Assembly: GCA_016125035.1 (NCBI GenBank)
Contig: WGMN01000004.1
Location: 1-64,000 of the forward strand
Direction of reading: 5' to 3'
DNA: 64,000 bases
Source: Pseudomonadota bacterium
GTDB taxonomy: Bacteria > Pseudomonadota > Alphaproteobacteria > UBA2136 > UBA6156
The translations under genes and the position numbers were made by a program. The notes under the pieces were generated by a model that did not search any database, was not told the origin of the DNA, and saw nothing but the letters and a program-made list of their open reading frames with translations. Each line of letters opens with the position of its first letter. The first letter of the stretch is position 1. Below, one piece after another: positions 41,029 through 45,818 of the stretch.

Positions 41029-41052
41029 CCTTCTCCAGACGAAAAACGAGGA

Positions 41053-41082
41053 AACGCCGGGCTTTGCAGCCCGGCGTTTTCG
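41053..41082 (+). terminator. Rho-independent terminator
   Basis: AACGCCGGGCT-ttgc-AGCCCGGCGTTTT. Confidence 0.75.
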
Positions 41083-41108: not shown

Positions 41109-41444
41109 TTAGGCCGCTTTGAGGGCCTTGCCGATGGAGGTACGCTTGGTGGGTCTGCTCTGCGACATGGAGGCCGTGAGCTTGGCCAGCGGAGCTGCAT
41201 CGCCGCCGATGAAGGAGGCCATGGCATTGAACCAGGCGAGTTGCCCGGTGCGCTTGCCGTGAAGGTGGCGCTCGGTGGCCAGGCAGCTTTGCGCGTTGTG
41301 CGCTTCCAACGGGTTATCGAGCGTGAGCCAGACCTGACGGTTGGCTTGCTGGAGGCCGAGGCGGCTGGCAGCTTGGGTTGCCTTGCGGCGACCGGCAACA
41401 ATATCTTCGGGGCGATAAAACTGCCCCAGTCCCAGATCGGTCAT
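41109..41444 (-). CDS. Small uncharacterised protein, paralog 1
   Basis: MTDLGLGQFYRPEDIVAGRRKATQAASRLGLQQANRQVWLTLDNPLEAHNAQ...; similar to the 41601-41996 product. Confidence 0.65.
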   Translation of the reverse strand: MTDLGLGQFYRPEDIVAGRRKATQAASRLGLQQANRQVWLTLDNPLEAHNAQSCLATERHLHGKRTGQLAWFNAMASFIGGDAAPLAKLTASMSQSRPTKRTSIGKALKAA

Positions 41445-41600: not shown

Positions 41601-41996
41601 TTAGGCCGCGTGGGATGCGGCGGCCGTTTTGCGCCCGGGTTGCCCGCGCGCAAAGGGAGCGGCGCGGCGGGAGGAACGGCAATGAGGTTTGGCCGGAGTG
41701 ATGGCGAGCAGCACCAGCCCATGGTCGCGGCCCTCGATGAAGTCGGCCATGGCCACCAGCCAGGCGTACTGCTGGGGCGTGTTGGTGGTGTTGAGGCGAT
41801 GGCCGTCGAGGTAGCTGCCGGCATCACCGACGGTGAGCGGGTTGGCGAGGATCTTCCACAGGCTGGTATTGACGCTGGAGAGGCCAATTTGCCCGGCCAC
41901 GCGTGTGGCGTGGCGGCGGAACAGCGCAAGGTATTTTTCGCCGTAGTGTTTGTGAAAATCTGGTGCGACGAACAGGGAGCGTTGGTGCAAGAACAT
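41601..41996 (-). CDS. Small uncharacterised protein, paralog 2
   Basis: MFLHQRSLFVAPDFHKHYGEKYLALFRRHATRVAGQIGLSSVNTSLWKILANPL... Confidence 0.65.
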   Translation of the reverse strand: MFLHQRSLFVAPDFHKHYGEKYLALFRRHATRVAGQIGLSSVNTSLWKILANPLTVGDAGSYLDGHRLNTTNTPQQYAWLVAMADFIEGRDHGLVLLAITPAKPHCRSSRRAAPFARGQPGRKTAAASHAA

Positions 41997-42086: not shown

Positions 42087-43844
42087 TTAGTCGGCGGGGG
42101 AATCTTCCTGCGGGGTGGGGGCGTTGGCCAGGGTTTGGCCGGTGGGATGGGTGGTGCGGGCAAACGCGTAGAGCTCGTTCATATAACTGGGCACAATGAC
42201 GCGGGTGGCGCCGGGCAGCACCACCGCGGCGTTGGTGATGCCCTCTGGCAGGGTGGCGGCGCCGGAGATTTGCAGGGTGGCGAGGTTGAGCTCGAGCAGG
42301 CGGCCGCCGGTGGTGCCAAAGAGCAGGGTGCCTTGCCCGGTTGGCACCGGTTTGGCCATGACGCGGGCGCCGGCGGGGACCTTCTTCTCCAGCGTGAGAG
42401 TTTGTAAATTGATGACGTAGAGGTGTTGGTCGTTTGACCCGCAGAAGGCGAATTTGCCGGAGATGAGCGGTGTGGTGTAGACCACCCCGGCGGTGGCGAT
42501 GAGTGCGCGTTGGGCGCCGGTGGCGGCGTCGAGCACGTAGATGCCGCCGTCGAAGCTGCCGATGACGATGAGCCCGCGGGCGTCATCCACCGCGCCGGCG
42601 TGCTTGACCGGCCCGCGGGTGGGGACCTCCCACACCTTCTCGCCGCTTTGGGCTTTGTGCGCGGCGATGGTGTTCTCATTGGTGCCGAAGATGACGAGGT
42701 CGGCCGCCGCAAAGTAAACCCCGGAGCCGTGCTGGTAGGTTTTGGTGAAGACCTCCCACACCCGTTCGCCGGTATCCAGCCGGAAGGCGGCGATGCTGCC
42801 CTGGGCGCGCGGGCGGGCGTATTCCAGCCCGATGTAGAGCAGGTTGTGCTGCGGCACGATGAGTGGCGAGGAGCCCACCCACTCGCACAGTTGCTGCACC
42901 CACTGCTGTTTGCCGCTGGCGGCATCCAGGCAGTAGACGTTGCCGTTGTAGGCGCCGAAGTAAACCTTGCCGTTGTGCACGGCGGGCGAGGACAGGATGC
43001 CCTTGCCGTGGGTGCCCGGGCAGGCGAACTGCCAGGCCGGTTTGCCGCTGTGCGCGTTGAAGGCGACGAAGGTGCCGGAATCGGTGCCCATGAGAATGTT
43101 ATCCTGGAACAGCAGGGGGGCTGATTTGGGCACGATGTAGAACGGGTTGGCGCCCTTGGCGCCCACGCGCCACAGCGGCTGGTAGGCGTGCAGGGCGGGG
43201 GGCAGGGTGGGGGCGGCATCGGCAAGGGAAAGGCCGAACTGGTTGAGAGTGAACAGGGAGGTGACCCGGATGCCGTGTTGGCCCGCCCAGGCCAGTGCCT
43301 GCGGGTTTTGGAAGTGCACCACGGCGAAGGCGTGGGCCACGGTGTGGCCTTCATGCGCCAGGACCGCGCGGCATTTTTCAAGGCTGGCGCCAGAGTTGAT
43401 AAGGTCATCCACCAGCACCACGGGGTGTTGGTTAAGGTTGCCCTCGATGATGCGGGTGCGCCCGGTGGGCTTGCGCGCCTTGCGGATGATGAAGCCGTTG
43501 GTGGCGATGCCCAGTTGCTGCGCCTTGATGAGGATGGCGCTGACCAGCGGGATGGCCCCGACCTCCATGCCGCCGACCTGCAGCGGGCCCTGCGTGGCGT
43601 AAATTTGCCAGAACAGCGTGGCGATGGCATCCAGTGCGGCGGGCACCAGGGCCACCGCGCGGATATCGAGCAGCCAGAGGATCTTCTCGCCGGAGTTGGA
43701 GAGCAGGGGGGAATCTTCAGTGCCGCGTTGCACGCCGACCGTGGCGATGGTGGCTTGCAGGCTTTTGAGCAGCGCGGCATCCGGCTTGGGGGTGGCTGGT
43801 GGGGCGGAGGTTTTGCGCGCGGCGGGTTTTTTGTTTTTGGCCAT
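42087..43844 (-). CDS. Phosphoribosyltransferase domain fused to PQQ-like beta-propeller
   Basis: N-terminal PRTase signature HPVVLVDDLINSGASLEKCRAVL; C-terminal repeats of SGKPAWQF..., ASGKQQWVQ..., TGERVWEV..., SGEKVWEV. Confidence 0.85.
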   Translation of the reverse strand: MAKNKKPAARKTSAPPATPKPDAALLKSLQATIATVGVQRGTEDSPLLSNSGEKILWLLDIRAVALVPAALDAIATLFWQIYATQGPLQVGGMEVGAIPLVSAILIKAQQLGIATNGFIIRKARKPTGRTRIIEGNLNQHPVVLVDDLINSGASLEKCRAVLAHEGHTVAHAFAVVHFQNPQALAWAGQHGIRVTSLFTLNQFGLSLADAAPTLPPALHAYQPLWRVGAKGANPFYIVPKSAPLLFQDNILMGTDSGTFVAFNAHSGKPAWQFACPGTHGKGILSSPAVHNGKVYFGAYNGNVYCLDAASGKQQWVQQLCEWVGSSPLIVPQHNLLYIGLEYARPRAQGSIAAFRLDTGERVWEVFTKTYQHGSGVYFAAADLVIFGTNENTIAAHKAQSGEKVWEVPTRGPVKHAGAVDDARGLIVIGSFDGGIYVLDAATGAQRALIATAGVVYTTPLISGKFAFCGSNDQHLYVINLQTLTLEKKVPAGARVMAKPVPTGQGTLLFGTTGGRLLELNLATLQISGAATLPEGITNAAVVLPGATRVIVPSYMNELYAFARTTHPTGQTLANAPTPQEDSPAD

Positions 43845-43984: not shown

Positions 43985-44731
43985 TTAGGGCAGGTTGCGG
44001 GAAATTGCATCCAGCGCGGTGACCGCCGGGCAGTTGGGGAAGGCAGTGACCGCAAGCAGGTGCGATTTGACCGCGGTGGCGTAGAGGCGATCATGCGGGA
44101 TGTTGCCGAGGTAAGGCAGCGGCGGCAGGTGGAGAAATTTTTCCATGGCGGTGGTGAGCCGCGTGTGCACCTGCGCGGCCTCGGCCTTGGATGCCTGGTT
44201 GACGATGAGCTGGGCGTTGGCGGTGGCGTTGTCCTGCCACATCAGCTTGACCAACGCGTAGGCGTCGGTGAGGGAGGAGGGGTCGGGCGTGGTGATGAGC
44301 AGTGTGGCGTGCGCCTGGGTGCACAGGAACAGGGCTTGAGGTGCGACGCCGGCGGCGATATCGAGCAGGATGACGTCGTAATTTTCAGACAGCGCGCGGA
44401 GGTCGTTCATCAGTTGGGTGAGGCGCGGCAAGGTGAGGTTGACCAGCGCCTGGTGCCCGGCGCGGCCGGCAAGGAGATCGAACCCCTGCGGGGTTTTGCT
44501 GATGACGTGCTTGAGCGCGAACTGCCCGGCGATGTAATGCGCCAGGTCGCGCTCTGGCTTCATACCCAATTGCACGTCGAGGTTGGCCAGGCCGGTGTCG
44601 CCGTCGAACACCAGGACGCGTTTTTTCTGCCGGGTGAGCAGCGTGGCAAGGTTGAGTGTGAGGCTGGTTTTGCCCACACCGCCCTTGCCCGAGGCGACGG
44701 CATAGATGCGGGTGGCGGGAGGAATGTTCAT
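43985..44731 (-). CDS. flhG: FlhG/FleN (MinD-like flagellar number regulator)
   Basis: AVASGKGGVGKTSLTLNLATLLTRQKKRVLVFDGDTGLANLDVQLG; adjacent to flhF. Confidence 0.93.
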   Translation of the reverse strand: MNIPPATRIYAVASGKGGVGKTSLTLNLATLLTRQKKRVLVFDGDTGLANLDVQLGMKPERDLAHYIAGQFALKHVISKTPQGFDLLAGRAGHQALVNLTLPRLTQLMNDLRALSENYDVILLDIAAGVAPQALFLCTQAHATLLITTPDPSSLTDAYALVKLMWQDNATANAQLIVNQASKAEAAQVHTRLTTAMEKFLHLPPLPYLGNIPHDRLYATAVKSHLLAVTAFPNCPAVTALDAISRNLP

Positions 44732-44807: not shown

Positions 44808-45818
44808 TCATGAGGCGAAGTCCCAGGGTTGGTGGGGGAGTTGGGTGAGGCCCTCGGCCAGCCACTGCGCGGTGAGGGTGAGCGGCGGCACCGACATATC
44901 CGGGTTATGGGTGGCGATGCCGATGGGCAGGCGCGAGCCTTCCGCCGTGGTGAGCAGCGCACCGTAGCGGCTGGTGGCGTCGAGCTTGGTGAAGATGAGG
45001 CTGGAGATGTTGAAGCGGTGGCAGGCCACCGGCAGCGCGGTCATGTCGCCCAGGTTGAGCGGCGCGGGCAGCACCAGGTGGGTGAGCGCGGGGATGCCCA
45101 GGGTGCTGAGCTTTTTTTGCAGGGCGTTGAGGGTTTGCGGCGCGTAGGGGTTGAGGCCGGCGCTGTCGATGAGCAGCAGGTGGCGGGGGCCGAGCTCCTT
45201 ACCCGCGGATTTGAGGTCATTCGGTGTGGTGATGAGGTGGGCGTGCTCGCCGAGGATCTCCGCCGCGATGGCCAGGGGCTCGAACCCGCCGATCTTCTGG
45301 TCGTCGAGCGACAAAATGCCCACCGTGCGGCCCTGCTTTTTGGCGTGGATGGCCAGCTTGGCCACCAGCGTGGTTTTGCCCGCGCCCTGAGGGCCGATGA
45401 ACAGGTGCGCCTTGCCGGCGGGAAGGAGATCGCCCGGGGTTTTGAAGGTGATGAGTTTGGCCAGCAGCATCTCCAGCGCTTCCGGCTGCGAGAAGCCCGC
45501 GCTTTGCAGGCCCGGCAGCGCGGCGGTGATCTTGGCGGTGAAGGCCGCGGGCAGGCCGTGGGCCTCGAGCATGGAAGTGAACAGGTTGGTGGAGGGTTTG
45601 GCGGGGGCGGAGGAAGGGACTTCGGCCAGCGGGGTGGCTTCCACCGGTTTGCTGCGTGGTTCGTCCTCGTTCACCGCGGCGGTGATCTCCAGCGTGGGGA
45701 GGCCGTCTTCCCCCTTGATTTTGCGCGTGCTGAGGATCAGGGCCTCTGGCCCCAGCTGTTGGCGGATGATGCGCAGGGCATCTTCCATTTTGGGCGCGGT
45801 GAGGGTTTTGATGCGCAT
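44808..45818 (-). CDS. flhF: Flagellar SRP-like GTPase FlhF
   Basis: MRIKTLTAPKMEDALRIIRQQLGPEALILSTRKI; FIGPQGAGKTTLVAKLA. Confidence 0.94.
   Translation of the reverse strand: MRIKTLTAPKMEDALRIIRQQLGPEALILSTRKIKGEDGLPTLEITAAVNEDEPRSKPVEATPLAEVPSSAPAKPSTNLFTSMLEAHGLPAAFTAKITAALPGLQSAGFSQPEALEMLLAKLITFKTPGDLLPAGKAHLFIGPQGAGKTTLVAKLAIHAKKQGRTVGILSLDDQKIGGFEPLAIAAEILGEHAHLITTPNDLKSAGKELGPRHLLLIDSAGLNPYAPQTLNALQKKLSTLGIPALTHLVLPAPLNLGDMTALPVACHRFNISSLIFTKLDATSRYGALLTTAEGSRLPIGIATHNPDMSVPPLTLTAQWLAEGLTQLPHQPWDFAS

Follow-up and report, generated by a model that had tools for sequence, protein, structure and literature searches.

A phosphoribosyltransferase–propeller fusion decoupled from pyrimidine synthesis in small-genome Alphaproteobacteria

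The 64,000-nucleotide stretch of alphaproteobacterial DNA analyzed here (the window) encodes a protein in which a type I phosphoribosyltransferase (PRTase) domain with the orotate phosphoribosyltransferase (OPRT) fold is followed by an eight-bladed propeller. The evidence for this architecture far exceeds chance, and nine orthologues share it. We could find no paper on it in the open-access literature, in keeping with the statement of a sequence-only reading of this DNA that it knew no described function for it. Type I PRTases normally act alone in nucleotide metabolism. Our best explanation, to which we give even weight for and against, is that the fusion is a cytosolic, PRPP-dependent transferase that descends from OPRT, has a changed acceptor pocket, and uses its propeller to present the acceptor or a partner. 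It is supported by the prediction of both folds, a retained PRPP site, loss of the arginine of the VDR motif, origin in one clade, purifying selection, and persistence in genomes without a detectable parent pathway. The parts and their folds were already known; the novelty lies in how the domains are combined, in the residue signature, and in the decoupling of the fusion from pyrimidine synthesis.

The ORF occupies positions 42087 to 43844 of the minus strand, starts with ATG, has no internal stops, and encodes 585 aa. That it is a genuine PRTase–propeller fusion, as the sequence-only reading had proposed, is borne out by profile searches, PDB matches, and AlphaFold models for both halves. The PRTase domain spans aa 20 to 206 (43227–43787, minus strand). 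An HMM search, suggested as a check on its assignment, placed Pfam family PF00156 on aa 68 to 175 at 29.7 bits, over the cut-off of 26.3 bits. The pyrE model TIGR00336 matched aa 50 to 202 (E = 4e-15) at 55.9 bits, below its cut-off of 106.8 bits, which the stand-alone PyrE proteins of related genomes likewise do not reach. Human and mycobacterial OPRT were the PDB sequence matches of this part, and its AlphaFold model (pLDDT 92 for the domain alone) has Mycobacterium tuberculosis OPRT as its best PDB match, with a query-normalized TM score of 0.81. The BamB/PQQ-like propeller spans aa 219 to 566 (42147–43190, minus strand) and is most conserved at aa 279 to 410. PF13360 scores 110 bits on the window protein, over its cut-off, and PF13570 scores 137.8 bits against a gathering score of 133 bits; in each of the ten fusions, PF13570 is the best-scoring Pfam family for the propeller. 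BamB, designed propellers, and quinoproteins are its PDB sequence matches, and its model agrees with the designed eight-bladed protein Cake8 at a target-normalized TM score of 0.93. The whole protein has a pLDDT of 84.5 and a pTM of 0.65, the latter leaving the placement of the PRTase relative to the propeller uncertain. The N-terminus, MAKNKKPAARKTS..., reads without a hydrophobic segment, and in the orthologues at loci L009 and L010 the PRTase domain begins almost at the N-terminus; a cytosolic location, guessed earlier from the lack of a signal peptide, is therefore reasonable.

The PRPP contacts of M. tuberculosis OPRT, including the roles of K98, R94, and K95, have been described (PMC5430920). 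They map onto R62, R121, K122, K125, D146, D147, N150, S151, G152, and S154 of the window protein, all of which are the same in 10 of 10 fusions, and every PRPP-contacting residue of the mycobacterial enzyme is kept or conservatively changed in the family. The PRPP motif itself, VVLVDDLINSGAS (aa 142–154; 43383–43421, minus strand), reads DDxxNSGxS in all ten. In the mobile catalytic loop, R121-K-x-R-K125 ... E134-G135 (43440–43484, minus strand), the RK, K, and EG elements are as in OPRT.

Comparison of the ten fusions with the 18 nearest stand-alone PRTases defines a residue signature. Position 178 (F178 in the window protein; 43311–43313, minus strand) is Phe or Tyr in every fusion, replacing the VDR arginine found in 18 of 18 stand-alone proteins. 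Asn replaces the phosphate-loop Thr at position 150, and Trp occupies position 186, in 10 of 10 fusions and none of the 18 relatives; R124 is likewise invariant in the fusions and occurs in 1 of 18. The loop His is missing in 9 of 10 fusions and is Thr127 in the window protein. Since the most divergent fusion (locus L042, 2972–4717) has the canonical OPRT loop KDHG with its His, the other lineages probably lost this residue once the fusion had formed, unless the L042 lineage regained it. The arginine at position 178 corresponds to Arg156 of Salmonella OPRT, which we take to contact orotate. Rhizobial-type PyrE has Tyr at the site equivalent to F178, so that loss of the arginine alone is compatible with orotate. 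Together, the changes at positions 178, 150, 186, and 124 and at the loop His are suggestive of a different acceptor and fall short of proof.

We propose that the PRTase half would bind Mg-PRPP in the usual way, probably as a dimer in which the mobile RK-x-RK loop would close over the neighboring active site, and would pass the phosphoribosyl group on to an acceptor that is not orotate. The propeller, with its eight blades, would be a rigid module for recognition, binding and presenting either the acceptor itself or a partner protein that carries it. In a far-reaching version of this mechanism, which we consider very unlikely, the propeller would recruit a specific protein or RNA to which the PRTase attaches the phosphoribose of PRPP, making the fusion a macromolecular phosphoribosyltransferase; to our knowledge, attachment of phosphoribose from PRPP to protein or RNA is a modification of no known kind.

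The main rival to the transferase reading is that the fusion is a PRPP or nucleotide sensor: the PRTase would bind PRPP with no significant turnover, and its state would reach a partner protein through the propeller. We hold this to be possible, at well under even weight. PyrR and PurR, which are regulators with a PRTase fold, work in this manner, and propellers are common protein-interaction modules. An intact PRPP site beside an altered acceptor pocket and loop His would suit a sensor, as would purifying selection on the protein. The turnover lysines and arginines of the mobile loop are invariant, however, and a pure sensor would not need them; nor is there a conserved partner gene.

Selection was estimated by a simple count method, with dS near saturation in some comparisons; it gave a whole-protein omega of 0.04 to 0.16, and both halves are under purifying selection. 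The propeller has a lower dN than the PRTase in all three close pairs, and, with the conserved stretch at aa 279 to 410, this suggests that recognition is as important as chemistry. The window genome is a 1.45-Mb draft with 90.7% completeness. Nine further alphaproteobacterial genomes encode full-length orthologues (43 to 48% identity): four of the same order (G003, G008, G013, and G017), one of the same class (G152), and four alphaproteobacterial MAGs (loci L038, L039, L041, and L042). The ten fusions form one clade in the tree (support 100/100). The family was found in 5 of 18 genomes of the window's order, in 3 of 385 genomes in a class-wide sample, and in 1 of 399 in a phylum-wide sample, that one being the window genome itself; it is absent from G001, of the same genus, and from IMG/VR, and in the collections searched it did not occur outside the ten alphaproteobacterial genomes. 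The family is rare, with its ten members in small-genome Alphaproteobacteria. Its base composition (GC 0.66, GC3 0.86) is similar to that of flhF and matches its neighbors, and recent horizontal transfer was rejected on this ground. A viral origin was rejected for want of any viral relative in IMG/VR, and a plasmid origin because plasmid matches cover only the propeller, at about 30% identity.

Genomic context bears directly on whether the fusion still makes orotidylate, either as an additional PyrE or, for the window genome, as the sole one. The fold and the nearest relatives are those of OPRTs, and a search of the window genome gave a match to pyrF (65.7 bits) and no stand-alone pyrE; this genome also lacks pyrB and has a pyrD match below cut-off. 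Against this, pyrB, pyrD, pyrF, and stand-alone pyrE matches are all absent from G003, G008, G013, and G017, so that OMP would have neither source nor use there, although these absences are not certain, because most of the genomes are incomplete MAGs (G013 is 97% complete). Conversely, G152 and G758 to G761 carry all four genes, including their own pyrE, alongside the fusion. (The pyrD match of G758, at C13:84783–85667, has one in-frame TAA, which may reflect gene decay or misassembly.) The fusion thus coexists with pyrE where the pathway is present and persists where it is absent, a decoupling from pyrimidine synthesis. With four genomes lacking the pathway and five having their own pyrE, it probably does not serve the cell as its orotate enzyme and has a different job; adding the score below the pyrE cut-off and the changed pocket, we judge this reading unlikely. 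The orotate-PRTase-like layout remarked on earlier thus holds for fold and ancestry, but genomic context and the changed pocket speak against orotate as the substrate.

A related proposal, that the fusion salvages uracil or another free base where de novo pyrimidine synthesis and upp are missing, is in our estimate quite unlikely. No genome of the window's order has a upp match above cut-off, and a base free of carboxylate would presumably not need the VDR arginine. However, three relatives that are 92 to 97% complete (G005, G011, and G015) lack the fusion as well as upp and the searched de novo genes, and G152, G759, and G760 carry upp together with the fusion. Replacement of upp by the fusion was rejected, since relatives miss both, and the fusion is no general answer to pyrimidine dependence, because most relatives without it likewise lack the pathway genes. 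The window genome and its relatives (G000–G017) are mostly without detectable pyrB, pyrD, pyrF, and upp, yet retain flagellar genes; that this order obtains its pyrimidine nucleotides by import is our guess.

The loci of the fusions give no hint of a shared system. As described in the sequence-only reading, flhG (43985–44731) and flhF (44808–45818) lie upstream on the same strand in the window, with 140 bp between flhG and the fusion. On the 3′ side are two small paralogous ORFs (41109–41444 and 41601–41996, minus strand) with 36% mutual identity, neither of which matches a family in Pfam or NCBIfam. Beyond them lies a strong terminator-like hairpin (41050–41081); the two ORFs may share a transcript with flhF, flhG, and the fusion. 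This setting, whose conservation had been proposed as a check, is not kept in relatives. Neighbors in the orthologue loci, named by reading translations, include rpsK/rpsM (L007 and L008), lipB (L008), a heptose-type nucleotidyltransferase gene (L009 and L010), purF-cvpA (L039 and L041), a ribokinase-type gene (L038), and riboflavin genes (L042). A gene read as a CDF-type cation-efflux gene lies downstream in three loci only (L049, 8326–10900; L039, 2937–5577; and L041, 7977–11336), overlapping the end of the fusion in L049. No partner gene is conserved over the ten loci, and the earlier idea of a system component is therefore unsupported.

A component of an anti-phage or conflict system, comparable with the PRTase effectors of known defense systems, is highly improbable. 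The distribution is patchy, and there are weak matches to ShosT, PsyrT, and retron PRTases, but these score 11 to 20 bits and cover the PRPP motif only; no antitoxin-like or defense partner and no mobile neighborhood was seen at the fusion loci, and fast diversification is absent. Least probable of all is a flagellar regulator acting with FlhF and FlhG, which the co-directional adjacency in the window favors, but which we rejected given the 140-bp gap, the occurrence of flhF-flhG without an adjoining fusion in G003, G005, G007, G008, and G013, and the placement of the fusion at other loci in G003, G008, and G013.

A fusion with a changed pocket, held under selection without its parent pathway, suggests either a PRPP-dependent reaction that awaits discovery or a PRPP sensor. 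The family has few members, and its definition reaches down to single residues. Should its activity turn out to be ordinary, the fusion would still be an undescribed domain architecture.

Compared with known systems, the fusion shares the PRPP motif with the defense PRTases (ShosT, PsyrT, and the retron PRTase), but has neither a full-domain match to them nor their partner genes. Its blades belong to the sequence class of the PQQ-dependent alcohol dehydrogenases, but it scores 53.6 bits with TIGR03075 against a cut-off of 480 bits, and the vicinal Cys pair (CC) occurs in 4 of 10 fusions only. For both reasons PQQ binding is unsupported, and of the PQQ/WD-like blades noted earlier, the PQQ/BamB sequence class is what stands. 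The eight-bladed PQQ-like fold is also that of BamB, whereas the fusion has an N-terminal PRTase, no signal peptide, and a TIGR03300 score of 92.7 bits against a cut-off of 285.2 bits. Compared with PyrE of the mycobacterial, human, and alphaproteobacterial R-type, it has the same fold (TM 0.81), PRPP-site residues, and mobile RK..K loop; it differs in the VDR Arg changed to Phe or Tyr, the phosphate-loop Thr changed to Asn, the invariant R124 and W186, the C-terminal propeller, and its occurrence without pyrB, pyrD, and pyrF in G003, G008, G013, and G017. As in the AASDH/ACSF4-type proteins (PF13570), the propeller trails an enzyme, which there is an acyl-activating enzyme and here is a PRTase.
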